In this document: in pieces, positions 1 through 30,434 of the stretch
Layout: every line of letters begins with the position of its first letter
Numbering within the stretch: the first letter of the stretch is position 1
Assembly: GCF_030540835.1 (NCBI RefSeq)
Contig: NZ_JAUOEK010000152.1
Location: forward strand, 1 to 62,617
Source of the DNA: Flavivirga aquimarina
GTDB taxonomy: Bacteria; Bacteroidota; Bacteroidia; Flavobacteriales; Flavobacteriaceae
DNA length: 62,617 bases
Direction of reading: 5' to 3'
Notes under the pieces: model-generated
Seen by the model: the letters and a program-made list of their open reading frames with translations, nothing else
Database searches by the model: none
Told to the model about the DNA's origin: nothing
Program-made: the position numbers and the translations under genes

Positions 1-195
1 CTACGAAGAATTCTGTAATTTTATCTCTAAGCATAAAGGTTGTTTTTTGAGGTTAAACTAAAATTTGACACTTTAATTTACTCAAAATCAGCCTTTTTTG
101 CTAATAAATCTTGCATTAATTCTTATCCAAGATTCACGTTATATTAAGGTCTAAATGTATTTGATGCGTATTAATTCAAAAAAGACAATTACATG
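1..195. other. Left-edge intergenic stretch
   Basis: No full gene is visible. On the plus strand a reading frame enters from the window edge and stops at 59-61, giving about 19 residues ending in LRLN. This could be the tail of a gene lying outside the window, but it is too short to identify. The rest is AT-rich and lies downstream of the esterase gene stop. I see no convincing terminator hairpin here. Confidence 0.3.
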
Positions 196-1040: not shown

Positions 1041-2603
1041 TTAGTTCAACCTAACATCTACAACTGTGGTATCATTATATTTTTTTTGTAATTCCAACAA
1101 TTGTGCATACATGGTTTGAGTAATCCCTCCATACCCCTTTTTTCCATATAAATTATTGATTTCACCTGGGTCTTCTTCCAAATCGTATAGTTCCCACTGG
1201 TCTATATTATTATAAAAGTGAACCAATTTATGTTTATCTGTTCTAACACCGTAGTGTCTTTTAACATCATGAGGTCCGGGATATTCATAATAATGATAAT
1301 ACAAAGCATCTCGCCATGCACTACCCTTTTCTTCTTTTAATAAAGGCAGTAATGATTTTCCTTGCATATCTTGAGGAATCTTAGCACCAGCTAATTCTAA
1401 AATAGTAGGTGCATAATCTATATTTTGTACTAATTTATTAACAGTTCCTTTTTTAATTTTAGACGGCAACTTCATTACTAAAGGTGTACGAAATGACTCT
1501 TCATATATAAAACGTTTGTCGAACCAACCATGTTCCCCTAAATAGAAGCCTTGATCTGATGTATAAACTACTAAGGTGTTTTCTGCCAGCCCATTTTCTT
1601 CTAAATAATCTAAAACCTCCCCTACACTATCATCTACAGAGGCTATACATCTTAAATAATCTTCTAAATAACGTTGATAACTCCATTCTAATAATTCTTT
1701 TCCTGTAAGCTTAGCCTCTTTATAGGCATCTATTTCTTTTTTGTATGCTTTGTCCCAGGCAGCTCTTTGCTCCGGATTCATACGATTCATTTGATTCTCA
1801 AAGTATTTTCGCAAAGGCCCTTCTATCTCGCCTTCTTTATCAAGCATCTTTAAATCATTTACAGGGCAAAAGTCTTTCATGTGCATTCTTTGACTTGCAG
1901 CTGCTGTACGCCCCTCATAGTCATCATAAAAACTATCAGGAATTGGAAACTTTACATCATTGTATTTATCTAAATATTTTATATCGGGCATCCAACATCT
2001 ATGAGGTGCTTTATGATGCATTAAAAGTGCAAAAGGTTTTGTTGTATCTCTCTTTTTCAACCAGTCTAAACTATAATCAGTAATCAAACTAGTAACATAT
2101 CCTTCTTTTCTTGATTTCTGCCCCATTTCAATAAAATCTGGATTATAGTAATCTCCCTGTCCTGGTAAAATATTCCAATAATCAAAACCTGTAGGGTCGC
2201 TCCCCAAATGCCATTTCCCTATCATAGCTGTTTGGTAGCCTACTTGTCGCAACATCTTAGGAAAGGTTGGTTGGCTTCCATCAAATTGCTCTCCATTGTT
2301 ACGCTGTCCATTAAGATGTGAAAACTTACCTGTAAGCATAACTGCTCTACTTGGTGAACAGATAGAATTGGTTACAAAGCTTCTTGTAAACTTGACACCT
2401 TCGTTTGCTATTCTATCGATATTAGGTGTTTGGTTCAACTTACCATTGTAACAGCTCATGGCTTGGTAACCATGATCATCCGTCATGATATAAATTATAT
2501 TGGGTTGCTGTGCTTTCTTTTCTTTCTCAGGCTGCTTACATGACGTAAAGAAACCTGCAAACAATACTGCGATGTATATGGAAAATAGTCTTTTTTTATT
2601 CAT
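1041..2603 (-). CDS. S1-family sulfatase (lipoprotein)
   Basis: The 520-residue formylglycine-dependent sulfatase has a lipoprotein signal with lipobox FTSC (Cys22), placing it at a membrane, probably the periplasmic or outer face. The metal-binding TDD lies at residues 41-43. The sulfatase signature SICSPSRAVMLTG has Cys82, the residue converted to formylglycine. A GKWHLG block follows, and the C-terminal WELYDLEEDPGEINNLYG stretch matches the usual sulfatase tail (DUF4976-like). Long, full-length members of this type act on sulfated sugars. It sits between the esterase and the DUF1080 gene, all on one strand with short gaps, so it probably belongs to the PUL transcript. No formylglycine-generating enzyme is in the window, so maturation must depend on a gene elsewhere. 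Confidence 0.93.
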   Translation of the reverse strand: MNKKRLFSIYIAVLFAGFFTSCKQPEKEKKAQQPNIIYIMTDDHGYQAMSCYNGKLNQTPNIDRIANEGVKFTRSFVTNSICSPSRAVMLTGKFSHLNGQRNNGEQFDGSQPTFPKMLRQVGYQTAMIGKWHLGSDPTGFDYWNILPGQGDYYNPDFIEMGQKSRKEGYVTSLITDYSLDWLKKRDTTKPFALLMHHKAPHRCWMPDIKYLDKYNDVKFPIPDSFYDDYEGRTAAASQRMHMKDFCPVNDLKMLDKEGEIEGPLRKYFENQMNRMNPEQRAAWDKAYKKEIDAYKEAKLTGKELLEWSYQRYLEDYLRCIASVDDSVGEVLDYLEENGLAENTLVVYTSDQGFYLGEHGWFDKRFIYEESFRTPLVMKLPSKIKKGTVNKLVQNIDYAPTILELAGAKIPQDMQGKSLLPLLKEEKGSAWRDALYYHYYEYPGPHDVKRHYGVRTDKHKLVHFYNNIDQWELYDLEEDPGEINNLYGKKGYGGITQTMYAQLLELQKKYNDTTVVDVRLN

Positions 2604-2664: not shown

Positions 2665-3402
2665 CTACAACTCTTTAATCTTAATATTTTTGAACCATAT
2701 TTTACTCCCATGGTCTTGCAATCCAATAAATCCTGTTTTTGATTTTCCATAAGCTGGAAAGTTCTTCCATTTACCTTTTGCGACTTTAGAGTCCCATTCA
2801 TCATTCCAAGCTGTAAACTCTACAATCTTTTTTCCGTTAAGGTAATGGGTTACTTTACCTTTATTAAAGACTATTCTCGAACTATTCCAAGTATTAATTG
2901 GGTTTAGATTTTTTTGAGTAGAATCTGCTGGTGTCATGGCATAATCTGCTCCTGTTGAATTGTACGGTGTTACCCCGCCTGGAAACCCCAAATCATCAAT
3001 AATTTGGTATTCAGGACCCGAAAAATACGTAGCCTCCAACTCCGGAGCTTCAACTATGTGATATAATATCCCACTGTTTCCTTCTGGTGCTAATTTCCAT
3101 TCTAACTTAAGATCAAAATTATCATATTTATCGGTTGTTATAATATCTCCCATTATATCGCCTCCAGCTCCAATAGTCATTAAAGTTCCTTCTTCTACTT
3201 TCCAGGCTACAGGCATATCATTAGTTTTATAACCTCTCCAACCATTAGTTGTTTTTCCATCAAATAATAATTTCCAGCCGTCTTCTTTTTCCTGTTTAGT
3301 TAAAACATTGTCTTGAGCGGTATTTGTATTACATCCCATTAGAAAAATACAGCTTATGATTAATAGAATTAAAAAATTACGGTTTTTGATTAAATTTTTC
3401 AT
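2665..3402 (-). CDS. DUF1080 (3-keto-disaccharide hydrolase family) lipoprotein
   Basis: The 245-residue protein has a lipobox LMGC (Cys24), followed by a single DUF1080 domain (about residues 40-245) of concanavalin-like beta-sandwich type. Visible family marks are GWKLLFDGKTTNGWRG, the GGDIMGDI stretch, LEWKLAPEGNSGILY, PEYQIIDD and the C-terminal GFIGLQDHGSKIWFKNIKIKEL. The family has been named 3-keto-disaccharide hydrolase because characterised members cleave glycosides whose sugar was first oxidised at C3. The same gene block holds a GMC oxidoreductase with a gluconate-dehydrogenase-3-like partner, the expected oxidising half of such a pathway. The link is inferred from family membership and gene neighbourhood, not shown directly. 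The length is normal for a single-domain member. Confidence 0.88.
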   Translation of the reverse strand: MKNLIKNRNFLILLIISCIFLMGCNTNTAQDNVLTKQEKEDGWKLLFDGKTTNGWRGYKTNDMPVAWKVEEGTLMTIGAGGDIMGDIITTDKYDNFDLKLEWKLAPEGNSGILYHIVEAPELEATYFSGPEYQIIDDLGFPGGVTPYNSTGADYAMTPADSTQKNLNPINTWNSSRIVFNKGKVTHYLNGKKIVEFTAWNDEWDSKVAKGKWKNFPAYGKSKTGFIGLQDHGSKIWFKNIKIKEL

Positions 3403-3420
3403 TAGATTTTTATTAAAAGT

Positions 3421-6400
3421 TTATTCGAATTTTAGGTCAACTGAAGAAAGCCATTTTCGTCGAAGATACTCTTCAATTCCTTTTCTTTCCCAATTTGTAA
3501 GTGCTCTATTTATAAATATCATTTCGGCTACAGATGCTTCCCATAAACCCTCTACTCTACTGAAAGGTATATTGGATTTCGATTCTAATTCTACAGTAAG
3601 AATACAATAATCCATAGGGTTAGCTGTTGTAAAAGGATCTATTTTCTTACCATTAAGATACACCTTGCCATTTTTGGTTTTTTCATCAATTGTATCTTCA
3701 TCAAAAATCGCTTTTTTAGAGTCCTTGCTTTTTCCTATAATACCGTTCAACGCTCTATATGGACTTGCTCCGGGAAAAGACATAGAGCTTTCTTTATAAA
3801 CTAATATGATGGTTTGATAATCTACAACCTTTTCTTTCATCACAGACACCCATACATGATCTAAAGCCGCAACTCCTTTACCATTTATTTTATTAGGTTC
3901 GTACTTAACAAATATGCTATTGGGCGTGTTACGCGATTTATCTTTCCATGTTTTAACTGGGCCTCTTTCGGGCGCAATCACATCTGTTTTTCTATCTCCA
4001 TTTATGTCGCTGGCATCAAACCAAAGGAGCATACTTTCTCTTTCTAATTCTAATGGGTTTATGGCAACTTTTCTTTTATCTGCAATGTCACCTACCGCAA
4101 AACCAATTCTATTTACACTCTCTGCTTTTGTTAAATTATTTTTTGCAGATACATAGTAATTACCTTTAGTTTTAGGAGAAAATGTATTACCGGTATGTAT
4201 TGGGAATTCATAGGCTTCTCCTTTATAGGCATTAGCATCTTCTGTATACCATTTGTAAATATAATCTTTTAAGGGGTTTACTATTTTCAATGTCTGTGCA
4301 TCAACTGTATCTAATTCTATATTGTTTATTTCAAATGGATAAACTTCTGGAATGGCAACCATACCCTGTCTCACATTTTTATTAGCATCAGTAACCACAA
4401 AACTATAATTATCTGGCGATAGGTTTATCCTTTCTTTTTTACTAACTGGCACTGTCTTAACTGTTGAGGGTACTCTAATGTAATCTATATTGGGTAATGA
4501 CTGACCGTTAGAAACTAGTGTTATCTTGTTATAACCTTCTTTTAAATAAACATTAATGACTGATGAATCCCAACCCGTATATAAGGGACGTGTTTGATTA
4601 AAGCGCATAGATTCGTTTTCCAGCACCTCATTGATTGAAATTTGTGCATAAGAACCTTTCATTAAAATACCTCCATAAATAACTTCTACCGGATATATTC
4701 CGCTGTTTGCTACCTCAACATTCCATGAAACTTTGCCTTCTTGATTTTTAAAATGTACAAATGAATTATTACTGGCACTTAGAATGGTTTTTATTTCATA
4801 ATCTGATATTTCGAATGTAGCATTTTCGGCTTCGTAAATTTGATTAGCTCCATAGTTAAATTTAGCATTTTTCCATTGTACATGGTAAGGTGGAGTTCCT
4901 CCTGTAAATTGCAACGCTACTGCTCCATTATTCTTCTTAATTTCTGAAGCTTTAATAGTTGTTATAATTTCTATTGCTTCATCTTTTTTCTTAGCTTTAG
5001 TGGTCTTATTTTTTTCTAAACGACTCTTATAGATCGTATAATGGGCTTTTGCTTTTCTATATTCACTATCAATCACTGTTAAATCGTATATACCTACCCC
5101 GGCATCTTTCAATATGTCATCGGTACCCCCGGTAGACCACATATAATTATAGGGAGGCTTCCCTCCTGTAATAGTTGGTTTAATTGTATTAGACGTCTCT
5201 GATTTTTTATCTTTTTGTTTTGCGTCTAATGTTACTACCAACTTTTTAGCATTAGATGTCGGTGATGTATTTGAAATATTCCAAGTAACTTCAAATTTAG
5301 GAAACTTGGCATACGGTGGATCGGGTCTTATATAACTTGTTTCATCTGTAATGGAACAAGTTAATTTATATTGGGATATCGCTCCAAATTCAACATCTAT
5401 TTCGTCTATATTGGTTGCTATTATTTTTCCATTTAAAATCCATCTAACTACCTGCGTATTTGGTTGTGGTGTAATATGATCTACTGCAAAATGTAATTTG
5501 GTCTTTCCATCTATATTAATCGAAGTATTGCTAGGACTTATATGATTAATAGGGTTTACCAAATCGTATACTCTCATAGACACTCGCTGGTCGCATACTG
5601 GGCACATTTCTTCGGTATTATCAAACACCCCTGCCCCCATAATACAACCTTGTGCTGTTGGCCGGAAATAATTAATTAAATGGTATTGATTTCCTTCAAA
5701 AGCACCCACTTTGTCTAAATATTCTTGTTCGTATGGTGTTGGTAGTGGTGTTGTTGGTTCTATCCACTTTTTCCATTTTATTTTATCGCGTTCATGCTCA
5801 ATATCGGAAGCATATGTAGGAAACGCACTTGTCCCAGTGGCTACTGCTGTGTATTCATCGCCAAGGCTCATACATGTATGTGAGATTTCATGTAGCATTT
5901 TCCCTATTCCATTACCTGCTATAACAGCTGTTCCATATCTTTTTTCCAGGTTTCTGGCAGCTCCACCGCCTCCTTTATCTCTATTAGGCATCACTAAAAA
6001 AGTAACCCATCCTTTGTGTTCATCTTTCCAAGGTAAAAACAACTTATCGCGAATTGCATCTACTGCTTGAACATCTATACCTTTTTTCCATTCTGGAACA
6101 TCTGGAACCCATAGTCCGTATACATTAAAAAACTCTTTATAGTTTGCATAGGCTGTTTTTGCTCGCTCATCTCCATAAGTTAAAGCTGCTACTAATGAAT
6201 TATTGATATCTTTAATAAATTCATCTCTCATAGCCGGTGAATTATAAGGCTCACTCTCAGATGATGTCCATTGGTTCATAATAACCACATTGATTCTGTT
6301 ATCCTTATCCCCTGTTATTTGAATAGGTATTAACTCAGATTTTTCAATTAATGCATCAATCTCCTTTTCACTCCATATTTTTTTGGGATATTTTCGATTT

Positions 6401-6462
6401 TGAGAAAACATTAAAGACACTATTCCCAGAAATAGAAAACATACTACAAACCGCTTACTCAT
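3421..6462 (-). CDS. Multidomain M64-type metallopeptidase with SprB-like repeats, CBM and LamG-like domains
   Basis: The 1013-residue secreted protein has a signal peptide of about 1-20. The N-terminal third contains the zinc motif HEISH (His191, Glu192, His195) followed by GDEY (202-204), and later a CPVC pair. This matches peptidase family M64 (IgA peptidase type), whose zinc site reads HExxH then DEY. Residues around 405-545 hold two segments with GGKPPYNYMWS and GGTPPYHVQW, resembling SprB-type surface repeats. The next region (about 545-665) starts YEAENATFE and looks like a CBM6/35-type carbohydrate-binding module. The C-terminal ~180 residues (LLWFDASDINGD up to EYLRRKW) look like a LamG-type beta-sandwich. 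Lying between sulfatases and a DUF1080 gene, it may cut a glycoprotein or the protein part of a sulfated matrix. No type IX C-terminal sorting domain is obvious. Confidence 0.8.
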   Translation of the reverse strand: MSKRFVVCFLFLGIVSLMFSQNRKYPKKIWSEKEIDALIEKSELIPIQITGDKDNRINVVIMNQWTSSESEPYNSPAMRDEFIKDINNSLVAALTYGDERAKTAYANYKEFFNVYGLWVPDVPEWKKGIDVQAVDAIRDKLFLPWKDEHKGWVTFLVMPNRDKGGGGAARNLEKRYGTAVIAGNGIGKMLHEISHTCMSLGDEYTAVATGTSAFPTYASDIEHERDKIKWKKWIEPTTPLPTPYEQEYLDKVGAFEGNQYHLINYFRPTAQGCIMGAGVFDNTEEMCPVCDQRVSMRVYDLVNPINHISPSNTSINIDGKTKLHFAVDHITPQPNTQVVRWILNGKIIATNIDEIDVEFGAISQYKLTCSITDETSYIRPDPPYAKFPKFEVTWNISNTSPTSNAKKLVVTLDAKQKDKKSETSNTIKPTITGGKPPYNYMWSTGGTDDILKDAGVGIYDLTVIDSEYRKAKAHYTIYKSRLEKNKTTKAKKKDEAIEIITTIKASEIKKNNGAVALQFTGGTPPYHVQWKNAKFNYGANQIYEAENATFEISDYEIKTILSASNNSFVHFKNQEGKVSWNVEVANSGIYPVEVIYGGILMKGSYAQISINEVLENESMRFNQTRPLYTGWDSSVINVYLKEGYNKITLVSNGQSLPNIDYIRVPSTVKTVPVSKKERINLSPDNYSFVVTDANKNVRQGMVAIPEVYPFEINNIELDTVDAQTLKIVNPLKDYIYKWYTEDANAYKGEAYEFPIHTGNTFSPKTKGNYYVSAKNNLTKAESVNRIGFAVGDIADKRKVAINPLELERESMLLWFDASDINGDRKTDVIAPERGPVKTWKDKSRNTPNSIFVKYEPNKINGKGVAALDHVWVSVMKEKVVDYQTIILVYKESSMSFPGASPYRALNGIIGKSKDSKKAIFDEDTIDEKTKNGKVYLNGKKIDPFTTANPMDYCILTVELESKSNIPFSRVEGLWEASVAEMIFINRALTNWERKGIEEYLRRKWLSSVDLKFE

Positions 6463-6607
6463 TGTATTAATATTTTGTATTAAAACACTTTCTTAATATT
6501 GATAATTCCTAATTTTTAGGACAAAAACAGTTGATAAAAATACGTTTTAAAAGGCTTTTATAGAATACAAAATTATCTATGTAGTATAGTATATTTACAA
6601 ATTACTA

Positions 6608-8005
6608 TTATTCTATAATTCTTTGCGTCATTAGTTTATTTATCACCGAATCACATTTATGAGCATAGGATACTATTTTATCTGCATACTTTTTATCTAA
6701 TGCCAGGTTATTCGTTTCATAAAAATCTTCTTTATGATTATATAATTCTACATATTCTGGATTAGCTTCGTACCTTATGTATTTCCATGTTTCATCTCTA
6801 AAACACTCTGTCTTTGGCAATAAAGAAACGCCTTCTCTTTGATGTTCGAAAAAAGCTGACTGACGCCAATCTTCAATATCTTTATTATAAAAAGTTGCAA
6901 GACTTTCTCCTTGATAAACTTTTGGGATGTCTATCCCTGCATATTCCAATATAGTTGGTGCGATATCAAGATTTAGCACCATCTCATCAAAAGTTTTCGC
7001 CTTTGATGGTTCAGACTCTCTTGGGTCATAAATTACTAACGGCACACGTAGCGATTGTTCGTGCATTAACCATTTGCCAGAAAACCCTCTTTCTCCAATA
7101 TAATAACCATTATCACCCATAAAAATAATTACTGTGTTATCTGCTAAGCCTTCTTCTTTTAATGTCTTTCTTATTCTTCCTATAACACTGTCTACCGTAC
7201 TAATCATCCTATAATATCCTTTCACCATTTTTTGGTATTTGTCGGGTGTATCATAACGCCAATACCATCTTTTCCTGTTCATAGTTTGCTTCATAAATTC
7301 GGGCAAGGCATCAAAAAAAGCTGGATCTGCAGTAAGGGGGGTAGGAATTTCATCGTCAACATAAAGACTGTCTACATATTTAGGCCAAAAGTATTGCTCC
7401 TCGGCACTATCGTCTGCATGGGGAGACCAAAATGATAGTGATAGACAAAAGGGTTTATCATTATCAGATTTTATAAAGTCTATAGCATGATTTCCATGAA
7501 TATCTGCAAGATGTACTTCTTTTCCATCTTCTTCTATTAAATATGGCCAACGTGTTTTTATACAAGTATCAAATAAAGAATCTTCAATGCCTTTATTCAC
7601 TTTTACTCCAAATTTACCTATCATACCTGTTCTATAACCTGATTTTTTTAGTAAATATGGATAACTTTTATACATATAGCCATTATTTAAACTTGGCTTT
7701 CCGAAATTAAAGTCATGTGTTCTTTCGTATAACCCTGTAAATATGGTAGCTCTACTTGCTGTACATATGGGTGTTGTTACGAAAGCGTTTTTAAAATACA
7801 GACCGGTACTGGCAAGTTCATCCATATTGGGAGTTTTAATTATGGTATTACCTGCATACCCTAAAGCATCCCATCGTTGATCGTCTGTGAGAATAAAAAT
7901 TATATTTGGTCTTTCTTTTTCTTTAATCTCCTTTTCTTGATAGCTTTTATTTTTACACGCTAATACAAGTCCTGCCAATAGAAAAAAAACTATTATATTT
8001 TTCAT
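6608..8005 (-). CDS. S1-family sulfatase (lipoprotein, CTASR signature)
   Basis: The 465-residue sulfatase has a lipobox VLAC (Cys17). The metal-binding DD lies at 41-42 in the motif FILTDDQRWDALGY. The active-site signature is ICTASRATIFTGLY with Cys81 as the formylglycine precursor. The third signature residue is Ala instead of the common Pro; this C-x-A-S-R form occurs in part of the S1 family and is still modified by aerobic maturases. A GKFGV stretch takes the place of the usual GKWHLG. It lies 41 bp downstream of the next sulfatase in the transcription direction and is 145 bp from the M64-type gene, where a separate promoter could fit. It is intact, with the usual C-terminal VELYNHKEDFYETNNLA tail. 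Confidence 0.92.
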   Translation of the reverse strand: MKNIIVFFLLAGLVLACKNKSYQEKEIKEKERPNIIFILTDDQRWDALGYAGNTIIKTPNMDELASTGLYFKNAFVTTPICTASRATIFTGLYERTHDFNFGKPSLNNGYMYKSYPYLLKKSGYRTGMIGKFGVKVNKGIEDSLFDTCIKTRWPYLIEEDGKEVHLADIHGNHAIDFIKSDNDKPFCLSLSFWSPHADDSAEEQYFWPKYVDSLYVDDEIPTPLTADPAFFDALPEFMKQTMNRKRWYWRYDTPDKYQKMVKGYYRMISTVDSVIGRIRKTLKEEGLADNTVIIFMGDNGYYIGERGFSGKWLMHEQSLRVPLVIYDPRESEPSKAKTFDEMVLNLDIAPTILEYAGIDIPKVYQGESLATFYNKDIEDWRQSAFFEHQREGVSLLPKTECFRDETWKYIRYEANPEYVELYNHKEDFYETNNLALDKKYADKIVSYAHKCDSVINKLMTQRIIE

Positions 8006-8045
8006 AATTTTATTTATTTAAACCTGAGTATTTATTGAAAATATA

Positions 8046-9896
8046 TTAATCAAAGAGTATCACTTTTTGTTTATAATTGTCTTTTAACAGCCTGTCGGGT
8101 ACAGATGCTACATAATCTTTTATTTTTGGTTCTTCTCCTTTTCCTATATAATTTACATATATACATTCTGTACTAAAGGTTTTGCTACTTCCTTTTAATT
8201 TAAAATAGGTTTCAAAACATGTCGTACCTGCTTTTAGATTAAGCTCAAACTTTACTGTTTTCATATCATTAGTTACGGTAGCTGTTTTGTAAATATTCCC
8301 AACATTTAAATGAACATTTTCAATGTCTACTTCTTGGTCACCACGCCTGTTTTCTACTATCCTTTTTTCCGATTCCTGAGGCCAACGATTCAAATTCACT
8401 TCATATTTTCCATCTCGTGCCACATTAACGACCCATATTTTTTTTCCATTGCGAGTATGGGCATCGTGAGCATATAGGCTTACTGGGTTTTCGTATGGTG
8501 TTCCAATATATATTTTGGCATATTTATCAAAATCTACAGAAACATCTTCCCACCAGTTCTCATACCTATGATATAAATCCTTAACGATATTTGGATGTTG
8601 TTTAACGACATTTGTTTTTTGTTCTGGATCGGTTTTTATATTATACAATTCGTCTGTTTCCCTTTTAACAAGTCGCCATTGCTCTGTTAAAACTTGATAT
8701 TCTTTATCTTTTACAGGGTATTCAACACGTTGGTTATGTATAAACAACGTCCTGTCATCCAACCATTCTTTATTTGATCCATCTAGAAGCGGCGTTAAAT
8801 TTCTGCCATCTATTTTAAGTGTGTCATCAATATTTAACTTGCATAAATCAATTAAGGTTGGCATAACATCAATGTGTGCTGTTAGTACATCTATATCTTT
8901 ACCTCCTTTTATATTACCCTTAGGCCAACGAATAAAAAACGGTACATGTTGCGCATTTTCATATCCCCATATTTTACCTCCTCGCATACCACTACTATAC
9001 CCTTCTTTAACTAAACCTGTTTCAAAATCAATAACGATACCCCCAAACCATGGACAAGGCCCATTATCCGTCATAAAAATGACAATGGTATTTTCCTCTA
9101 ATCCCATATTCTTAACTTCTTTAAACAAAACTCCTATATCTTCATCAATCTTACTTATCATTCCATAATAGCTAGCTAGACGCCCAGAAACCTGTTTTTT
9201 ATAAGGCTCTATATACTTTTCATCTACTAAAAGTGGTGCATGTGGTAAATTTGTAGATATGTAACAAAAAAATGGTTTGTCTTTGTTTTTTTTGATATAA
9301 TTTATTGCTTCACCAAACCATACTGTATTGCAATACCCATCGTACTTTTTAAATACTCCTTTATGTTTATAAGTATCGTCATCATAATTATTCCCCCAAT
9401 AGTCGGGGTTCTGCCCAATACCGCCACCACCATGTACAATAGCTTCTTTAAAACCGCGATCTATGGGCCGAAAGGGATAATTTTCCCCTAAGTGCCATTT
9501 TCCAAATACTGCTGTTTCGTAACCATTATCCTTAAATAGTTCTGGCATGGTTACCATGCCTTCTTTTAATAAAGATCGACCTCCTATAGTATGCCAAACA
9601 CCTGCACGGGCAGAATAATTTCCTGTTAGTAAAGCAGATCTGGTAGGTGAACATGATGGATCTACATGAAAGTCTGTAAAACGAATACTCTTTCTGTAAA
9701 ACTCATCTATTATTGGTGTTTTTACATACGGGTTTCCGTGACAACTAAGGTCTCCGTACCCTTGATCGTCAGTCATAATAATAATGACATTAGGCTTCTT
9801 GGTATCTACATTTGATACAGTTGTTTTATGTTCTTCCTTACAACTAAAAAAGACAAAACATAAAGCCACTATTACTTTAAGGTTTGTCTTTTTCAT
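8046..9896 (-). CDS. Arylsulfatase A-like sulfatase with extra C-terminal domain (lipoprotein)
   Basis: The 616-residue sulfatase has a lipobox FFSC (Cys19). The metal-binding DD sits in IIMTDDQGYGDL (43-44). The signature SCSPTRSALLTGNY has Cys82, giving the arylsulfatase A type C-S-P-T-R variant. GKWHLG follows at about residue 126. The sulfatase core ends near residue 450 with LYNIKTDPEQKTNVV. A further ~150 residues (WWEDVSVDF onward) look like a beta-rich appended domain found in some PUL arylsulfatases; its role is unknown. It is the first of the sulfatases to be transcribed after the ROK regulator, 78 bp away. Three sulfatases with three signature variants in one locus suggest several sulfate positions on the target glycan. 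Confidence 0.92.
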   Translation of the reverse strand: MKKTNLKVIVALCFVFFSCKEEHKTTVSNVDTKKPNVIIIMTDDQGYGDLSCHGNPYVKTPIIDEFYRKSIRFTDFHVDPSCSPTRSALLTGNYSARAGVWHTIGGRSLLKEGMVTMPELFKDNGYETAVFGKWHLGENYPFRPIDRGFKEAIVHGGGGIGQNPDYWGNNYDDDTYKHKGVFKKYDGYCNTVWFGEAINYIKKNKDKPFFCYISTNLPHAPLLVDEKYIEPYKKQVSGRLASYYGMISKIDEDIGVLFKEVKNMGLEENTIVIFMTDNGPCPWFGGIVIDFETGLVKEGYSSGMRGGKIWGYENAQHVPFFIRWPKGNIKGGKDIDVLTAHIDVMPTLIDLCKLNIDDTLKIDGRNLTPLLDGSNKEWLDDRTLFIHNQRVEYPVKDKEYQVLTEQWRLVKRETDELYNIKTDPEQKTNVVKQHPNIVKDLYHRYENWWEDVSVDFDKYAKIYIGTPYENPVSLYAHDAHTRNGKKIWVVNVARDGKYEVNLNRWPQESEKRIVENRRGDQEVDIENVHLNVGNIYKTATVTNDMKTVKFELNLKAGTTCFETYFKLKGSSKTFSTECIYVNYIGKGEEPKIKDYVASVPDRLLKDNYKQKVILFD

Positions 9897-9974
9897 TTGC
9901 TATTAATAAATTTAATTAAACCAATATTACATTGATAGGATACTTGAGGTTAAGCTAACCTTTTACTTAGAAAA

Positions 9975-11195
9975 TTATCTTAATTCTAAATTCATGATTT
10001 TATTTAAAATTAATGCAACTGCACCTATGGATGTCGCTTGATCACCATGTGTTGCTGGTAAAATTTGCACTTTTAAGTTTGACTGGAGCAAATATTTCTT
10101 CTTCTTTTCTTCTATTAATTTAAACAATAAACCTTCATTTAAAGAAATTCCTCCTCCAATATAAACTGTTTCCGGATTTAATAAATTAGCTATAACACCA
10201 ATACCTTTACACAAATACTCAGCAATTTTATCAAAAATTTCAAGAGATGTTTTATCTCCTTTTAATGCTGCATTGGCTACAAGCTCTGCCGTAATCAAGT
10301 CTTTATTTCCTCCCGACAGTTCTTTTAACATTTCTGACCTGTTATTTTCTAATTCCTGAATTCCTAATGATGCAATTCTGTGTCCAGACGCCAAAGCTTC
10401 TAAACATCCATACATACCACATTTACATTGAACATCGCTATCGGGATCGACAGAAATATGACCAAATTCTCCAGCAAACCCATTATATCCTTTTAACAAA
10501 TTACCTTCTGCTACAATACCTGATGCAATTCCATAGCCAATATTTATAACCACAAAATTTTTCTGATTTTCACGTATTCCCATTTTCAATTCACCCAAAG
10601 CCATTAAACGTGTTGAATTGTCATAGAAAAACGGTAAATCCAATCGTTTATCTAACTCTTTTCTTAAATCTATGTTCGACCAACCAAAATCGGGTGAAGA
10701 TTCAATAATTCCTGTTTCACTATTCACAAGACCCGCAACGCCTATACCTATACCCCAAATTTTCTCATCAGGTCCTTTTCTTTTTCGAAGCTTAGCTACA
10801 ATTGCCACTATTTTTTCAACAATACTTTCAAAGCCTTTTTCCAGTTCGGTTGGTACTTGTATCTCTGAAATAAAATTGGCGTTTAAATCAACCAAACAGC
10901 CTCTTATGTAAGTAGCTCCTAAATCGATACCTATAACATGATTGCTTGTGTTTTTAAACTTAACGATTAACGGAGGCCTCCCACCGCTTGAATCACCTAA
11001 TCCTAGTCTTTCGACCAGTTTATCATTAAGAATTAAATCATTTACTATTCTTGTAATGGTTGGTGGTGTTAATCCGGATTTCTTGGCTATGGCAGATCGG
11101 CTAATTTCATTTTCATGCTTTATAAGCTTTAAAATAACTTTTTTATTTTCAAGATGTAAAAGCCCAATATCCATCTTATCATATTCTTTTCTCAT
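9975..11195 (-). CDS. ROK-family transcriptional regulator (NagC/XylR type)
   Basis: The 406-residue protein has an N-terminal winged helix-turn-helix (about 15-75; KVILKLIKHENEISRSAIAKKSGLTPPTITRIV), which separates regulators from plain ROK sugar kinases. The kinase-like core has the phosphate-binding IGIDLGATYIRG. The ROK zinc site is clear: GHISVDPD followed by CKCGMYGCLEALASG, giving the His and three Cys ligands. Such proteins are usually repressors released by a sugar or sugar phosphate. It sits inside the PUL, directly upstream of the sulfatase block and divergent from nothing, so it is probably co-transcribed. No hybrid two-component sensor or ECF/anti-sigma pair is found in the PUL part of the window, so this is the best candidate local regulator. 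The ligand is unknown. Confidence 0.9.
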   Translation of the reverse strand: MRKEYDKMDIGLLHLENKKVILKLIKHENEISRSAIAKKSGLTPPTITRIVNDLILNDKLVERLGLGDSSGGRPPLIVKFKNTSNHVIGIDLGATYIRGCLVDLNANFISEIQVPTELEKGFESIVEKIVAIVAKLRKRKGPDEKIWGIGIGVAGLVNSETGIIESSPDFGWSNIDLRKELDKRLDLPFFYDNSTRLMALGELKMGIRENQKNFVVINIGYGIASGIVAEGNLLKGYNGFAGEFGHISVDPDSDVQCKCGMYGCLEALASGHRIASLGIQELENNRSEMLKELSGGNKDLITAELVANAALKGDKTSLEIFDKIAEYLCKGIGVIANLLNPETVYIGGGISLNEGLLFKLIEEKKKKYLLQSNLKVQILPATHGDQATSIGAVALILNKIMNLELR

Positions 11196-11382
11196 AATCC
11201 ATTATTACTTTTTAAATATATTAAAATAACTTTCATAAAGCAACACAATTTTAAAAATTATAAATTGACTAATGATAGTTTTATTAATTATATTAAAAAC
11301 ACATATTTAACTATTATTTATTGAGATATTATATTTTCATTTAATACATAAACAGAAAAATTATTTTACAACTATTTTTCCG

Positions 11383-11946
11383 CTATGAAAGTAAGCTTTT
11401 TTCTGTTTTTATTATGATTTCTGATGTAAAATATCCTAAAAAACTAAATTCACGCACAGTAGTTAAGAACCTATAAAGCAAACATTTACTCTTCGAGTGC
11501 TTAGACAAACTACTATAATCTGACTCTAAAAGCTTAAACACTTCTACTTCTTTTTCTTTCGAAATATTTAAACAAATATCTAACAAAATTTCACATGTAT
11601 CAACTGAAACTTCGGAAGCTTCTTTGTTAAATTTTTGCTCAAATTTCTTTAAAAATTCATTCAAACCCAGTTTAATTTCTTTTTGCTTTTGAATTGTTAA
11701 AACATTAGCACACATTTTATCTACAAATTGGGTAAGGTTTAAATCTTTACCCCCTACTATTGATGTTCTTGGCAAAAAGACATCCACCAAACAATCAATT
11801 AAGTATATTTCTGTTTTATCAAAAAAAACGGAAACCTCAGCAACCTTATTATCAGAACAAGATTCAAGAAAGCCTATTATTGTTGATGTAGACACGGTTA
11901 ATCCGAGTGTTGCTAGTATATTTTTAATTGCTATTCTTCTGTCCAT
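11383..11946 (-). CDS. Gluconate 2-dehydrogenase subunit 3-like small subunit
   Basis: The 187-residue protein starts MDRRIAIKNILATLGL, a twin-arginine-like leader with a hydrophobic stretch and SCS at about 30. This resembles the Tat-exported small subunit of gluconate 2-dehydrogenase and of FAD glucoside 3-dehydrogenases. The body is helical, with LIDCLVDVFLPRT near residue 50, a position conserved in the family. It lies 2 bp downstream of the GMC oxidoreductase stop-to-start boundary, as the family pairs usually do; the small subunit acts as a hitchhiker and assembly partner that carries the folded FAD subunit across the membrane. No cytochrome c partner is seen in the window. Sequence conservation is weak, so the family call rests partly on the neighbour and the leader. 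Confidence 0.72.
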   Translation of the reverse strand: MDRRIAIKNILATLGLTVSTSTIIGFLESCSDNKVAEVSVFFDKTEIYLIDCLVDVFLPRTSIVGGKDLNLTQFVDKMCANVLTIQKQKEIKLGLNEFLKKFEQKFNKEASEVSVDTCEILLDICLNISKEKEVEVFKLLESDYSSLSKHSKSKCLLYRFLTTVREFSFLGYFTSEIIIKTEKSLLS

Positions 11947-11948
11947 AA

Positions 11949-13655
11949 CTATATTGTTTTAGACTTCATTTGATTAACTGCATGATCAACAGCCCTCGCT
12001 GTTAAAGCCATATATGTTAATGATGGGTTTTGATTTCCGGATGATGTCATACAGGCACCATCTGTAACATAAACATTTGGCACAGCATGAATTTGATTGT
12101 ATTTATTCAACACAGATGTTTTTGGATCGTGCCCCATACGAGCTGTACCCATTTCATGAATGGCATGCCCTGGATAAAATGACGCTACATCATCATAACC
12201 TTTTACATTCTCAAAACCTGCCAACGTTAACATCTTTATAGCTTCTTGCTTTATATCCTTTCTCATTTGTATTTCATTTTCTTTGAAATCTGCATCAAAA
12301 GTAATCGTAGGCAAGCCCCATTCATCTGTGTTTTTATAGTCAAGGGTCATTTTATTTTCGTGATATGGCAAGCACTCACCAAAACCTGTCATTCCTACCC
12401 GCCAAGACCCCTGCTTTAAAAGATCGTCTTTAATAGCTCCTCCATAACTCAGCTCTTTAATTGCTCTTCTCCAATCTGTCCTACTAGCACTTCCCTGAAA
12501 CGAATAGCCTCTTAAAAATTTAGACTTATTGTTTTCTTCCAGATTTCTAAATCTTGGAATATGGAAGCTTGCAGGCCTGTTCCCTATATAGTCTTTATCT
12601 TTAAACTTATTAGTTGTTCCTGTTGCTCCAACCCTGAAATGATGATCCATTAGGTTATGTCCTAATTCACCGCTATCATTCCCTAGTCCGTTAGGGAACC
12701 TGTCTGATTTTGACTGTAATAAAATACTGGTGGTAGCAATTGCCGAGGCACAACAAAAAATTACATTTGCTGAATATTCGACCTTTTCCTTTGTTATTGC
12801 ATCTATTATTTTAACCCCTGTTGCTTTTTTACTGTAATCATCATATACTATTTCATAGACTATTGAATTTGTCCTTAAGGTCATATTCCCTGTTCTCTCT
12901 GCTGCTGGTAAAGTAGAAGAATTACTGCTAAAATAAGCCCCTAAAGGACACCCTCTCATACATCTATTTCTGTTTATACAATTTGCTCTCCCCAAATGAT
13001 TCGCATCTCCAGTTAAATTAGCAAACCTACCAATTGTTAAATAACGGTTTTTATAATGTTTAGAAATTTCACTACGAAAATATTTTTCTACCGGGTTTAA
13101 TTCCATAGGAGGAGAAAAATAACCATCTGGCAAATGTGACAACCCTAAGTTTTCACCGCAAACTCCTATGAATTTTTCAACTTTTGTATACCAATCTGCA
13201 ATATCTGCATATCGAATTGGCCAATCAACACCAACGCCTTCTTTTTTATTAGCCTCAAAGTCTAAATCACTCATTCTCAAAGCTTGTCTTCCCCATGTTA
13301 TAGACTTACCTCCTAAATGATATCCCCTAATCCAATCAAAACGCTTGGTTTCGTTATATGGATGCTTCAAGTCGTCTACAAACCAGTGCTTTGTGATTTT
13401 TGAAGTAACAAAACCTGTTCTGTTTTGTTTTTTTTGCCGTTGTATTTCATTGTTACTGGCTTTTCCTCTATACTCAAACTCCCAAATATCCTTATTAGCG
13501 GTTGGATAGTCCTCTACATGTTTAACCATTCTACCCCGTTCTAAAACCAGTGTTTTTAATCCTTTTTCACATAATTCTTTAGCTGCCCATCCTCCGGAAA
13601 TTCCAGTTCCAATAACTATGGCATCATATTTTTTGTTTAAACTGCTAACAATCAT
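11949..13655 (-). CDS. GMC-family FAD oxidoreductase (candidate glucoside 3-dehydrogenase large subunit)
   Basis: The 568-residue flavoprotein has the Rossmann motif IGTGISGGWAAKEL near residues 16-29 and LVLERG after it. A Cys-containing patch NCINRNRCMRGCPLGA lies near 225-240. The C-terminal GMC signature region contains HEMGTARMG and the catalytic-type stretch GNQNPSLTYMALTARA. There is no signal peptide, consistent with export by hitchhiking on the adjacent small subunit, whose gene begins 2 bp away. Family members of this pair oxidise sugars, often at C3 of a glycoside, passing electrons to a cytochrome or quinone. Together with the DUF1080 lipoprotein about 9 kb downstream it could form an oxidation-then-cleavage route. 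The substrate is not known from sequence, and other polyol or gluconate oxidations remain possible. Confidence 0.85.
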   Translation of the reverse strand: MIVSSLNKKYDAIVIGTGISGGWAAKELCEKGLKTLVLERGRMVKHVEDYPTANKDIWEFEYRGKASNNEIQRQKKQNRTGFVTSKITKHWFVDDLKHPYNETKRFDWIRGYHLGGKSITWGRQALRMSDLDFEANKKEGVGVDWPIRYADIADWYTKVEKFIGVCGENLGLSHLPDGYFSPPMELNPVEKYFRSEISKHYKNRYLTIGRFANLTGDANHLGRANCINRNRCMRGCPLGAYFSSNSSTLPAAERTGNMTLRTNSIVYEIVYDDYSKKATGVKIIDAITKEKVEYSANVIFCCASAIATTSILLQSKSDRFPNGLGNDSGELGHNLMDHHFRVGATGTTNKFKDKDYIGNRPASFHIPRFRNLEENNKSKFLRGYSFQGSASRTDWRRAIKELSYGGAIKDDLLKQGSWRVGMTGFGECLPYHENKMTLDYKNTDEWGLPTITFDADFKENEIQMRKDIKQEAIKMLTLAGFENVKGYDDVASFYPGHAIHEMGTARMGHDPKTSVLNKYNQIHAVPNVYVTDGACMTSSGNQNPSLTYMALTARAVDHAVNQMKSKTI

Positions 13656-14140
13656 TTCAATATTTATAGTTAAATACTAAACAAGCAAAACTAACTTTGT
13701 AATACTTATTTAAAAACAAATCTAAAGAAATATTACTTTAATAAGGATGTTTTTTTATAATAAAAACACCTTCTCTTTAAAAAGTTATTGGGTCTAAAAA
13801 TAATTAGGTTGATTTGCTATTACTCTTCTTACTTTTTAAGTACCGAAAGGTTTGTTAGCCGAGATTAGTTGTGAATTCTGTTTTTATAAAGATTTAAGCA
13901 CATAAAACCTTTCGAATTATATAGTTCACAAGGTTTTTTAGTTCTCTTTTTTTTAAATATCTCTATAATCCAATATTCCGCAACAACTCTAAAATATCTA
14001 GATGGGTAAGAAAAAAATAATTGTACTTGCACAAATTGCGGCTCTGTCTCATTAATTCTTTCTCTTAGAATACCTTTAGTTTAGCCTAAGATAAAAATCA
14101 ATGTTAACGCAACATTTTTGTTTAATCTAAAAGTAAAAAC
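13656..14140. other. Non-coding stretch upstream of the GMC gene
   Basis: About 485 bp without a supportable gene. It should contain the promoter of the minus-strand GMC transcript, but I cannot point to a perfect TAnnTTTG box. The part just before 14141 (about 14,030-14,140) probably belongs to the left non-coding end of the decayed IS110-type element that follows. Confidence 0.4.
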
Positions 14141-14290
14141 ATGAAATTTAGAGAAGTCTTAGGGATAGATGTTAATAAAAAGACATTGGACATTTATTTG
14201 CATTGTTCGTCCAAACACAAGGTTTTCGCCAATGACTGTCAAGGTTATCTTTTATTATATGATAATCACATTTATAGACAACATGACTAA
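14141..14290 (+). pseudogene. IS110-family transposase remnant (N-terminal fragment)
   Basis: A 49-codon frame from ATG to TAA reads MKFREVLGIDVNKKTLDIYL and then diverges. The GIDVNKKTLD motif is the start of the DEDD (RuvC-like) catalytic domain of IS110 transposases, where the first Asp is catalytic. A complete protein would be 300-400 residues, so nearly all of it is missing. It is on the plus strand, opposite to all PUL genes around it, and lies in the gap between the SusD gene and the GMC gene. It marks an old insertion inside the locus. The identification rests on one short motif. Confidence 0.7.
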
Positions 14291-14297
14291 GTTTCTT

Positions 14298-14366
14298 ATA
14301 TTTGTTTATAATACAAATATAGGCATAGCCTTAAGAACATGACCACCTGCATAGCAGGTGGTTTTT
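14298..14366 (+). repeat. Pair of hairpins after the IS110 relic, second one terminator-like
   Basis: ATATTTGT (14298-14305) is repeated inverted as ACAAATAT (14313-14320). Then CCACCTGC (14343-14350) and GCAGGTGG (14354-14361) form an 8-bp GC-rich stem with a 3-nt loop and a run of five T on the plus strand. The second hairpin can act as a plus-strand terminator. It also resembles the terminal palindromes recognised by Y1 transposases. It lies downstream of the SusD stop in the minus direction but lacks a U-run on that strand. Confidence 0.55.
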
Positions 14367-14422
14367 CAAGGAAAAAATAAATTCGCAGCTTAATTATTTG
14401 GTTTTATCTTAGAATACGTTAT

Positions 14423-16060
14423 TTAATCTGTTGTAACAAAATTGTCTGGAATAGTTAATGGTAAATACCAGTTTTCCGGATTCATTAATTTTACTTGAAC
14501 AGCATTAGCTCCAGCGTCATCACCCGCATTTTCAAATTTGCTTGCTACAGCATCTGCAATAATGCTAGGATCGTTACTTCTTCTAGCAAAACGAAGTAAG
14601 TCTTCCCACCTGTTACCTTCAAATGCAAGCTCTAAAGCATTTTCATCAAGAATTAACCTATTTACTGCTTGAATAGAATCTGTTAAGGTTATATTTTCAG
14701 GAACATTTACGGCTGCCATATCAACTCTTCCTCTAATGCCTCGGTTTCCAGAAATAGGCTCATCACTAGTGTTAACTGTATAATATTGACCGATTGGGAA
14801 GTTTAAAAAGTTCTCTAGGTTGCCAAATAAAGGTGCATCTACTGGTGCATCTGTTGTATTGAAAATACCATTTACAATAGCTAGTGCCTGTCTGGGGTGT
14901 CCTGCATAATTGATCGCTTCTGCATATCTAAGATAAATTTTAGCGGCTCTATTCCACATAAAATAGTCATATTGGTATTTATAAATTTTTGCTGTCTCTT
15001 CAGTATAAGGAGTAATATCTCCTATGGTACCAGTTACAGATCCTACAGTTCTTATATCTCCTAATTGATTATAAGCTTCACCATTGTAAGACCTGTATTG
15101 TGACGCCCAATTTTGTAAAATTAGAACGGAAGGTTTTAATTGATTAGTAATAACTTCAAAACTGTTATTTTGCTGTCTGTACTGATCGCTAAAAGCGGTG
15201 TAATTAATTATTTCTTGAGGTGCGAGGTTTTCATCAAAAATACTTGGCCAAGCAGTTACCACAGTATAGTTGCCACCATTAAGGGTTGTCGTTGTACCGT
15301 AAGCTGATAAGTTATAGAAATTACCACCTCCAGAAACGTGATTATCAAGAAATTGTTTATAGCGTGTTGCAGCAGTAATAAAATCTCCTTTCCATAAATT
15401 TAAATCACCCAAAAGAATATCTTGATCTGGAATCATACTAAATATATTGTACCCTAATGAGTTTGCATATTTAGTAACATTTTCGACACCTTCTATAGAT
15501 GCTAAATTTTGAATTAATGTATCTAAAGCTGCATTAAAAGAAAGTAAAGGGTAATTTTCTTCTAAATTCTCATCGCTAGCAATAGGTTTGGTTATGTATG
15601 GTAACTCACCAAAGTTTATTAATATTTGTAATTGCGCCCATGTTCTAATTCGTAAAATTGAAGCGTAGTCTTCTAGCAAAACACCATCGTATGCCTCGGT
15701 ATCAATGCCATGTAATGCAAAATTGCAATTGTTAATTATGGCGAATAATGTTGTTGGATTTATATAGCTATTATCAGGATTAATTTCATGCCTGCTAATT
15801 TGTCTAATTTCATCGCTTGTGTTATCGGTAACATCTACTAAATCTGCTCTCATTTCTCCTAACACAATATACTGTCCTGTAATGTCTTGCATTAGTGCGA
15901 GGACACCGAATAGGGCCGACCTTGCATCAAGTTTATCATCTCCAAGGTAATCTTCTGTTAATAATACCTCTTCTGGAGAAACCTCTAAAAAGCTTTCGCA
16001 AGATGTAAGCAGGGTTGAAGCGAAAAGTAAGCTGAAAAATATACTTATATAATGTTTCAT
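14423..16060 (-). CDS. SusD/RagB-family glycan-binding outer-membrane lipoprotein
   Basis: The start is placed at the ATG at 16058-16060, giving MKHYISIFFSLLFASTLLTSC with the lipobox LTSC (Cys21). An in-frame ATG 33 bp upstream would add a charged leader that suits a lipoprotein less well. The ~545-residue protein has the SusD plan: N-terminal ESFLEVSPEEVLLTEDYLG, a helical TPR-like core (YLRYAEAINYAG), and the C-terminal ELAFEGNRWEDLLRFARR motif shared by the family. It binds glycan at the cell surface as the lid of the SusC channel encoded 37 bp upstream. It closes the SusC/SusD half of the PUL. It is less similar to the second SusD in the window, so the two pairs probably handle different oligosaccharides. 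Confidence 0.93.
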   Translation of the reverse strand: MKHYISIFFSLLFASTLLTSCESFLEVSPEEVLLTEDYLGDDKLDARSALFGVLALMQDITGQYIVLGEMRADLVDVTDNTSDEIRQISRHEINPDNSYINPTTLFAIINNCNFALHGIDTEAYDGVLLEDYASILRIRTWAQLQILINFGELPYITKPIASDENLEENYPLLSFNAALDTLIQNLASIEGVENVTKYANSLGYNIFSMIPDQDILLGDLNLWKGDFITAATRYKQFLDNHVSGGGNFYNLSAYGTTTTLNGGNYTVVTAWPSIFDENLAPQEIINYTAFSDQYRQQNNSFEVITNQLKPSVLILQNWASQYRSYNGEAYNQLGDIRTVGSVTGTIGDITPYTEETAKIYKYQYDYFMWNRAAKIYLRYAEAINYAGHPRQALAIVNGIFNTTDAPVDAPLFGNLENFLNFPIGQYYTVNTSDEPISGNRGIRGRVDMAAVNVPENITLTDSIQAVNRLILDENALELAFEGNRWEDLLRFARRSNDPSIIADAVASKFENAGDDAGANAVQVKLMNPENWYLPLTIPDNFVTTD

Positions 16061-16097
16061 TTGTTTTTTTTTAATTATTTCAATCTTTTTCAAAAAA

Positions 16098-19232: not shown

Positions 19233-19250
19233 ATTTAATTTTTAGTTGTC

Positions 19251-20768: not shown

Positions 20769-20854
20769 TATAAAATCTTTAGTTATCTATTTTTTGGTCT
20801 ACTGGAGGTATTCGTTTTAAAAAATCAAATCTTAATACTCAGCTTTAACAGTTT

Positions 20855-22519: not shown

Positions 22520-22531
22520 AATCTATAATTT

Positions 22532-23992: not shown

Positions 23993-24014
23993 AATATTTT
24001 TTAAATTTTACCAT

Positions 24015-27257: not shown

Positions 27258-27280
27258 ACTTATCAAGCTTTTGTTTTTTA

Positions 27281-30322: not shown

Positions 30323-30434
30323 GAAGAACTATGTGTTTTTTGGGATTTATAAGATTCAGTATGCCGTGTTCAGTGGGCAGTAATCAGTCATCGGTAAACA
30401 GTGTTCAGAAAATCCAAAAAACACATAGTTCTTC
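30323..30434. repeat. Long inverted repeat around a 70-bp spacer, next to the integrase relic
   Basis: The left arm at 30323-30343 and the right arm at 30414-30434 are exact inverted copies over 21 bp (core AACTATGTGTTTTTTGG). The spacer contains CAGT-rich short tandem-like sequence (30370-30408). The right arm ends exactly where the integrase fragment stops, so the element may have broken that gene. It could be a small non-autonomous mobile element or a strong transcription-stopping hairpin. Confidence 0.65.

Follow-up and report, generated by a model that had tools for sequence, protein, structure and literature searches.

An oxidise-and-cleave step may accompany the sulfatases of a composite glycan locus in Flavivirga aquimarina

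Gene content of the locus

The DNA analyzed here, referred to as the window, is the entire contig C129 (NZ_JAUOEK010000152.1; 62,617 bases) of the 5.29-Mb genome of Flavivirga aquimarina. It contains a run of sixteen genes on the minus strand, extending from position 29590 down to position 196, that can be divided into an uptake module with fasciclin (Fas) and SusC/SusD proteins and a cassette of sulfatases and associated enzymes. The cassette includes a flavoprotein of the GMC family with a small subunit and a lipoprotein of the DUF1080 family, and these three proteins may provide an oxidise-and-cleave step in the degradation of a sulfated glycan. In the direction of transcription the gene order is Fas, SusC, SusD, two Fas, SusC and SusD, followed by a gap of 767 bases and by the genes encoding the GMC flavoprotein, its PF13618 subunit, a ROK regulator, sulfatase C, sulfatase B, an M64 peptidase, the DUF1080 protein, sulfatase A and a SASA esterase (Table 1).

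A first-pass annotation, made from the sequence alone, had named three sulfatases and an esterase, a GMC flavoprotein with a Tat-like partner and a DUF1080 lipoprotein, and the Pfam searches confirmed these families, with the modified-cysteine motif C-x-[PA]-x-R being intact in all three sulfatases. The M64 peptidase, the ROK regulator, the repeat at the left edge and the composite make-up of the locus had been overlooked. In agreement with the same annotation, none of the sixteen main frames between positions 196 and 29590 (29.6 kb) matched a glycoside hydrolase (GH) or lyase family in Pfam. Since the contig terminates in a repeat and the DNA to its left is unreadable, an absence of hydrolases from the locus as such cannot be claimed.

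Table 1. Features of the F. aquimarina window, listed by position
Feature	Position	Strand	Evidence
End of a repeated element, contig break point	1..146	+	99% to C140:1-145; 91-92% to the starts of C5 and C4
SASA-type carbohydrate esterase, last cassette gene before the repeat	196..1008	-	PF03629 2.3e-53
Sulfatase A	1041..2603	-	PF00884, PF16347; PDB 7p24 7.9e-190, 5g2v 5.6e-173; CSPSR motif
DUF1080 (3-keto-disaccharide hydrolase) lipoprotein, 245 aa	2665..3402	-	PF06439 6.5e-49; lipoprotein by its start
Secreted M64-type metallopeptidase, 1013 aa	3421..6462	-	PF09471 1.6e-13; HEISH at 191; PDB 3p1v, 4df9
Sulfatase B	6608..8005	-	PDB 6hr5 2.9e-122; CTASR motif
Sulfatase C	8046..9896	-	PDB 6prm 2.8e-51; CSPTR motif
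ROK-family regulator with winged helix, first conserved cassette gene	9975..11195	-	PF00480 4.4e-62, PF13412 3.6e-6
Tat-signal small subunit (Gluconate_2-dh3)	11383..11946	-	PF13618 4.4e-13; two bases from GMC
GMC flavoprotein, candidate glycoside 3-dehydrogenase	11949..13655	-	PF05199/PF00732, 6e-20 and 1.3e-11
AT-rich gap, border of cassette and uptake module	13656..14422	-	118-base repeat; 26.7% G+C
Uptake module Fas1-SusC1-SusD1-Fas2-Fas3-SusC2-SusD2	14423..29590	-	Pfam

The GMC flavoprotein and its small subunit

The small subunit begins with M-D-R-R, and both arginines are invariant in all 27 aligned rows (window included). The GMC protein contains Cys 226, 232 and 236 along with His500, which align with the active-site histidine and with cysteines of the fructose dehydrogenase 7w2j. 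All 25 aligned rows, the window again among them, share these four residues, and we take the three cysteines to serve an iron-sulfur cluster. A structural model of the GMC protein (predicted local distance difference test, pLDDT, 75) has its closest folds in fructose dehydrogenase and glucose dehydrogenase dependent on flavin adenine dinucleotide (FAD), followed by pyranose and C-glycoside oxidases.

Matches to the GMC protein at 1e-60 were detected in 163 of 299 genomes of the family, the own genome included, and the neighbourhood counts refer to the best 80 of 258 named relatives. A homologue of the small subunit adjoins the GMC gene at all 80 of these loci according to protein clustering and at 78 according to BLAST, and a DUF1080 gene lies nearby at 55 and 43 of them, respectively. 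Other regular neighbours encode TIM-barrel isomerases, Gfo/Idh proteins and a nucleoside-type permease. Additionally, nine GMC loci on plasmids were opened, eight of which are annotated. Five of the eight, from Catenovulum, Runella, Xanthomonas, Hymenobacter and Palleronia, include a DUF1080 gene, and the clusters of Xanthomonas and Hymenobacter a cytochrome c gene as well. The clusters of Xanthomonas and Palleronia (53%) resemble LacABC, whose LacA and LacC families we take to be a GMC-type large subunit and a small subunit.

The DUF1080 lipoprotein

The PF06439 match of the DUF1080 protein is full-length (166.9 bits, positions 1-187 of 187). The closest solved structures are 3u1x (4.1e-55) and 4jqt, and 3osd, 8rr2 and 8tda match at about 1e-38. 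The protein keeps the motifs [PC]E[YF]Q..D and QDHG...[WY]F.N, which are aligned in 3u1x, domain 2 of 4jqt, 3nmb, 3osd and 8rr2. Its gene is part of the sulfatase operon, 18 and 61 bases away from the genes on either side. The nearest kin, with 43-54% identity, occur in 10 other genomes of the 397 in the family set, and in the fetched stretches a second DUF1080 gene stands beside six of the ten. The own genome contains a further polysaccharide utilization locus (PUL) at C85:4000-23999 (L085), comprising genes for GH78, two Gfo/Idh proteins, a twin-DUF1080 protein, SusC/SusD, GH115, GH92 and two GH29 enzymes.

The sulfatase cassette in two relatives

The core of the cassette, consisting of the ROK regulator, sulfatases C, B and A and the SASA esterase, was identified in two relatives, designated G236 and G162, with 66-79% identity. 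The respective values in G236 are 78% for ROK, 69% for sulfatase C, 73% for sulfatase B, 62% for the M64 peptidase, 79% for sulfatase A and 66% for SASA. There, the M64 and sulfatase A genes are separated by 38 bases with no DUF1080 gene in between, and the SASA gene is followed downstream by genes for a 625-aa DUF1080 lipoprotein and a 654-aa protein with a cupredoxin end. Upstream of this cassette lie genes for an Aldolase_II/SDR protein, an isomerase-like protein (match below the cut-off), an FGGY kinase and TIM-barrel proteins, which look like L-rhamnose catabolism.

In G162 (ROK 78%, sulfatase C 69%, sulfatase B 75%, sulfatase A 76%, SASA 68%) a block on the opposite strand splits ROK-sulfatase C-sulfatase B from sulfatase A-SASA. 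The block ends with genes for a 635-aa ThuA protein and a 955-aa chain that combines a pyrroloquinoline quinone (PQQ) dehydrogenase, a cytochrome c and a DUF1080 domain (L222:11487-14354; CASCH). The fetched stretches of G236 and G162 do not contain the GMC pair, and no M64 homologue was found in that of G162. The DUF1080 type of the window is lacking in both cassettes, each of which has a DUF1080 protein of other make: the domain of the G162 fusion shares 24% identity with that of the window, and the 625-aa protein of G236 has no significant match, so that the three domains are not closely related. Thus, the window, G236 and G162 carry three versions of the cassette, each with a differently built DUF1080 protein.

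A ThuA/fusion pair is also present at a second site in G236 (76% and 84% identity to G162; fusion chain at L244:14914-17772, 952 aa), directly after two sulfatase genes and with a third sulfatase and a GHL15 protein encoded just before them; this site is a nine-sulfatase PUL that also encodes a GH29 enzyme. None of the 276 matching plasmid records covers 80% of the fusion chain.

With respect to its distribution, the cassette is rare and possibly acquired by transfer, though its G+C content is ordinary. Sulfatase C yielded matches at 1e-130 in 46 of the 397 family genomes, own genome included, of which two are close (69%, G162 and G236). A search of a class-wide sample of 394 other genomes, from which G162 and G236 are evidently missing, gave no match to the ROK protein at 1e-110. 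A full-length match to the M64 peptidase was found in none of 59 further relatives, of which 11 belong to the same genus; G236 is the only genome seen to have it.

The association of the cassette with DUF1080 genes was compared with the other sulfatases of the three genomes, which contain 38 (own), 98 (G162) and 62 (G236) sulfatase matches along with 10, 25 and 18 DUF1080 matches, respectively. All 38 sulfatases were used for the own genome, 89 for G162 (six second gene pieces and three weak matches, marked over the cut-off, were dropped) and 56 for G236 (after removal of five matches that fell short of the family cut-off and of one second gene piece). A DUF1080 gene lies within 10 kb of three of three cassette sulfatases in the own genome, two of three in G162 and three of three in G236. 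The same is true for 13 of the 174 non-cassette sulfatases (own 1/35, G162 4/86, G236 8/53). Counted by sulfatase loci, cassette included, DUF1080 occurs at 2 of 22, 4 of 36 and 2 of 23, respectively.

The uptake module and the composite nature of the locus

Matches to Fas2 with an E-value of 1e-20 or better are present in 13 of 397 family genomes, own genome included. Eight loci from seven of them were fetched, and five genomes with weaker matches (27-30% identity) were left out. All seven uptake genes occur in the same order in G154, G355, G353, G013, G415, G206 and G367, with Fas2 doubled in G154 and G355; the eighth locus (G355 C9) contains Fas2 alone. The genes that follow SusD2 vary. In G154 they encode GH29, a transporter, an esterase, sulfatases, GH97 and heparinase-fold proteins, and in G013 and G415 alginate-lyase-fold proteins, SASA, GH39 and GH3 or GH30. 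In G355, G353 and G206, with none to two genes in between, a PUL with DUF1080, Gfo/Idh, GH92 and GH29 genes adjoins the module; it includes GH78 in G355 and G206 and GH115 in G355 and is the counterpart of the own C85 locus. The locus of G367 is unannotated.

Since the genes past SusD2 vary while the order within the module stays the same, the genes from GMC to SASA constitute a second unit. The locus is therefore a composite, in which an uptake module lies beside a separate sulfatase/peptidase cassette. A view of the 29 kb as one ancestral PUL was rejected, as module and cassette are found apart in the relatives.

A candidate oxidise-and-cleave step

We interpret the locus as a composite one with an oxidise-and-cleave step and give this interpretation a probability of about 0.5; the enzymatic activities, the C3 selectivity, the order of the steps and the substrate are those that we infer for its proteins. 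The fasciclin proteins and the two SusC/SusD pairs would form a TonB-linked uptake module that imports a sulfated glycan or glycoprotein, and the cassette would trim this substrate outside the inner membrane. The M64 peptidase may release the protein part, and the sulfatases and the esterase may unmask sugar hydroxyls. In this copy of the cassette, a dehydrogenase of the LacA/LacC kind and the DUF1080 lipoprotein would have joined the set. The GMC protein, carried by its small subunit, would pass through the twin-arginine translocation (Tat) pathway and oxidise C3 of the exposed end sugar, with electrons flowing from FAD to a cytochrome, probably by way of an iron-sulfur cluster. Cleavage of the glycosidic bond, either eliminative or hydrolytic, would be the task of the DUF1080 enzyme in a second step, and the route would run alongside hydrolases and not replace them. 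Both reactions have been described in other systems for members of these families.

The idea of cleavage after oxidation had already been part of the first-pass annotation, and it holds in so far as GMC/PF13618 pairs regularly occur with DUF1080, isomerase and Gfo/Idh genes, as in LacABC (PMC9007349), and as the DUF1080 gene is situated inside the sulfatase operon, with other DUF1080 proteins accompanying the cassette in two relatives. The likeness of the GMC protein to fructose dehydrogenase in sequence and model, the second ThuA/fusion pair beside sulfatases in G236 and the PUL with DUF1080 and Gfo/Idh next to the uptake module in three of seven relatives also speak for it. It is weakened by the nearest kin of both proteins.

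The following observations count against such a step. A tree of GMC proteins, calculated with a quick method and SH-aLRT (Shimodaira-Hasegawa-like approximate likelihood ratio test) support in place of a bootstrap, assigned the window protein to a nine-row clade (SH-aLRT 99), and none of the eight other members (six loci along with G277 and G024) has a DUF1080 gene close by according to BLAST. Seven of these eight nearest copies are instead accompanied by GH109, GH20, GH2, N-acetylhexosamine or Leloir genes: four by GH109 and a hybrid two-component regulator, two by Leloir genes and two by GH20 and a sulfatase, one of the latter also by GH2; the copy of Gaetbulibacter has none of the listed genes. 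The corresponding count of clade labels, 5 of 6 versus 3 of 74, is partly circular, as the labels were drawn from clade members. Among the 80 GMC loci, BLAST detected sulfatase homologues within 10 kb at only four (loose match) and a sulfatase together with DUF1080 at none, and three of the eight annotated plasmid loci (two from Alteromonas, one from Haliscomenobacter) are devoid of DUF1080. The GMC pair was seen beside this cassette in no second genome and is separated from the ROK gene by 187 bases. The small subunit has neither a sequence match nor a convincing fold match in the PDB (best fold E-value 0.096, model pLDDT 84.6), which does not show that the folds differ. No cytochrome family (LacB-like) was found by Pfam in the 16 proteins between positions 196 and 29590, the rest of the genome not having been searched.

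The kin of the DUF1080 protein point in the same direction. In the fetched stretches, nine of the ten nearest relatives have a Gfo/Idh neighbour and one (G064) a GMC neighbour, so that the usual partner of this type of DUF1080 protein is an oxidase of a different kind; Pfam assigned none of the 16 genes of the locus to Gfo/Idh/MocA, a family that is present at C85. Moreover, DUF1080 genes of Pedobacter are without any lactose phenotype (PMC9007349). Only the two relatives count for an estimate of chance, because the window was picked for its DUF1080 gene. The presence of DUF1080 in both would be expected by chance at roughly 1 in 100 (about 1/10 each), and is thus suggestive but not proof.

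Alternative explanations

Because the pairing is seen in no second genome and the gap to ROK amounts to 187 bases, the GMC pair may be a stand-alone unit. The corresponding alternative, which we regard as quite possible though short of probable, is that the pair represents a free-standing sugar or polyol dehydrogenase placed by mobile elements, and that the DUF1080 protein alone serves the cassette, fed by a second GMC pair of the own genome (C107:274433) or by the Gfo/Idh proteins that occur with a twin DUF1080 at C85. Such a placement would be consistent with the border repeat directly upstream of the GMC gene, with the two-gene GMC units outside PULs in G277, G024 and Gaetbulibacter, and with fructose and glucose dehydrogenases being the closest solved enzymes; the preference of the DUF1080 kin for Gfo/Idh neighbours fits as well. 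On the other hand, the GMC gene shares strand and order with the cassette, and most of the nearest copies lie near galactoside or N-acetylhexosamine genes, several of them in glycan loci. The neighbours of five of these copies (L121, L122, L124, L133 and L140) hint at a galactoside or hexosaminide substrate.

Almost as possible, in our view, is an ordinary hydrolytic PUL cut by the contig end, with its glycoside hydrolases or lyases located beyond the left-edge repeat and with GMC and DUF1080 proteins that act as side-chain accessories. The contig does terminate in a repeat, a GH78 gene lies within 20 kb of the same cassette in both G162 and G236 (and GH30 in G162), and GH or lyase-like genes, or a GH-bearing PUL, trail the uptake module in six of its seven relatives, in three of them the PUL with DUF1080 and Gfo/Idh. 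The part of the first-pass annotation that had placed oxidation and cleavage in the stead of standard hydrolysis is therefore not supported. The 3-keto genes are present in the window regardless, however, and the G236 run from ROK to SASA, with the DUF1080 and cupredoxin proteins that follow, contains no hydrolase according to Pfam.

It is improbable that the DUF1080 protein is a plain hydrolase or binding protein acting on an unoxidised glycan, as might be suggested by the Thermogutta DUF1080 protein that is reported to be an endo-xanthanase/glucanase (PMC10881899; cited in PMC9007349), since the protein of the window has 3osd, 8rr2 and 8tda among its close relatives (about 1e-38) and retains the shared motifs, and the genetic evidence concerns 3-keto glycosides (PMC9007349).

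Comparison with known systems

The candidate oxidise-and-cleave genes of the window resemble the LacABC/DUF1080 system in that the large and small dehydrogenase subunits are adjacent, a DUF1080 gene lies nearby and the proteins would be periplasmic and glycoside-acting. This likeness is one of arrangement. In contrast to LacABC, the operon of the window lacks cytochrome, isomerase, reductase and permease genes, and it is found in the company of sulfatases, an M64 peptidase and SusC/SusD proteins. In Caulobacter, genetics linked lactose use to lacABC and a DUF1080 gene, and in Pedobacter a LacABC-like dehydrogenase matters for several glycosides (PMC9007349).

A DUF1080 lipoprotein homologous to the solved 3osd, 8rr2 and 8tda is common to the window and the 3-keto route of Bacteroides. 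The latter, reportedly described by Kastner and by Nasseri in 2024, is said to combine a BT2157-type DUF1080 protein with Gfo/Idh oxidoreductases. Oxidation is thus assigned to Gfo/Idh in the Bacteroides route and to a flavoprotein in the window, and a Gfo/Idh set with a twin DUF1080 is located at C85 of the own genome.

Comparable sets in other phyla are already known from Catenovulum adriaticum and the ulvan plasmid of Alteromonas sp. 76-1. The plasmid locus of C. adriaticum (L117) shares with the window a TonB receptor, a DUF1080 protein, a PF13618-type subunit, a sulfatase and a GMC protein with 59% identity, and its gene run also holds a TIM-barrel gene. It differs in that its sulfatases reach 27% identity as the best match, that its DUF1080 protein and small subunit have no match at 1e-5 to those of the window, and that it encodes a GH43 enzyme and a large CxxCH protein as a possible electron acceptor. 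On the Alteromonas plasmid (L116), described for ulvan degradation, a GMC/PF13618 pair is found among GH78, GH88 and sulfatase genes; the term GMC does not occur in the paper on this plasmid to the extent covered by the search listing. A combination of a 3-keto route, DUF1080 and sulfatases was not found in the literature, nor was one of PQQ and DUF1080, in a search that left out most subscription journals.

Possible substrate and wider significance

Judging from the neighbouring genes, the substrate may be a sulfated, possibly protein-bound glycan that contains rhamnose and 6-sulfated N-acetylhexosamine. Sulfatase A is nearest to mucin-desulfating and GlcNAc-6-sulfatases among the PDB sequences, and the nearest solved relative of sulfatase B is a rhamnosidase/sulfatase chain (6hr5), presumably of ulvan origin. 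The solved relatives of sulfatase C, kappa-carrageenan exo-4S sulfatases, are more distant. Two options were considered on the basis of such neighbours. A mucin- or keratan-sulfate-like substrate would accord with the kinship of sulfatase A, the M64 peptidase and the occurrence of the GMC clade near GH20, GH109 and Leloir genes. A rhamnose-rich substrate would accord with the kinship of sulfatase B, the Aldolase_II-SDR and FGGY kinase genes in G236 and the GH78 genes in G162 and G236. The M64 peptidase also carries an SprB repeat and a CBM35 match under the cut-off.

The analysis suggests that sulfated sugars may be among the substrates of an oxidise-then-cleave route, which has received less study than hydrolysis. 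We further propose, tentatively and with more doubt than confidence, that sulfatase cassettes of marine Flavobacteriaceae carry an exchangeable oxidise-and-cleave module, composed, each in a different genus, of an FAD dehydrogenase with DUF1080, of a DUF1080 lipoprotein with a cupredoxin protein, or of a PQQ-cytochrome-DUF1080 fusion. The cupredoxin protein and the fusion would stand in G236 and G162 in the place of the GMC pair, the fusion would be an oxidative glycosidase on one polypeptide, and C3 oxidation with cleavage would be a dedicated step for sulfated, probably rhamnose-containing glycans. So far, disaccharides and simple glycosides are the known substrates of the 3-keto route. If this route applied to sulfated marine glycans, inventories restricted to hydrolases and lyases would overlook a step, loci that look poor in enzymes would become readable, and one desulfated substrate would be cleaved by three different combinations of redox proteins and DUF1080. 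The fusion protein and the differences in redox neighbours among the versions of the cassette deserve most attention.

Borders of the locus

The esterase stop codon lies 49 bases from the repeat at the left edge of the window. This repeat is common to four contig starts, own included, and is probably an insertion sequence with a transposase. A 95% identical copy of the 118-base repeat in the AT-rich gap is located at C31:51648-51765 of the own genome, and the cassette is thus flanked by repeats at both borders. An IS110 transposase remnant considered at positions 14141-14290 was dropped, as this part of the gap yielded no Pfam match at 1e-3. The G+C content of the cassette genes (28.9-36.3%) and of the uptake module (31.4-35.0%) shows no sign of a foreign origin. 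A promoter scan with a typed consensus gave one match in 12 gaps, a value that, without a shuffled control, has no force as proof. Directly upstream of the uptake module, at positions 30433-30789, a 118-aa frame with an integrase SAM-like domain (PF13102) is present, perhaps the remnant of a mobile element.

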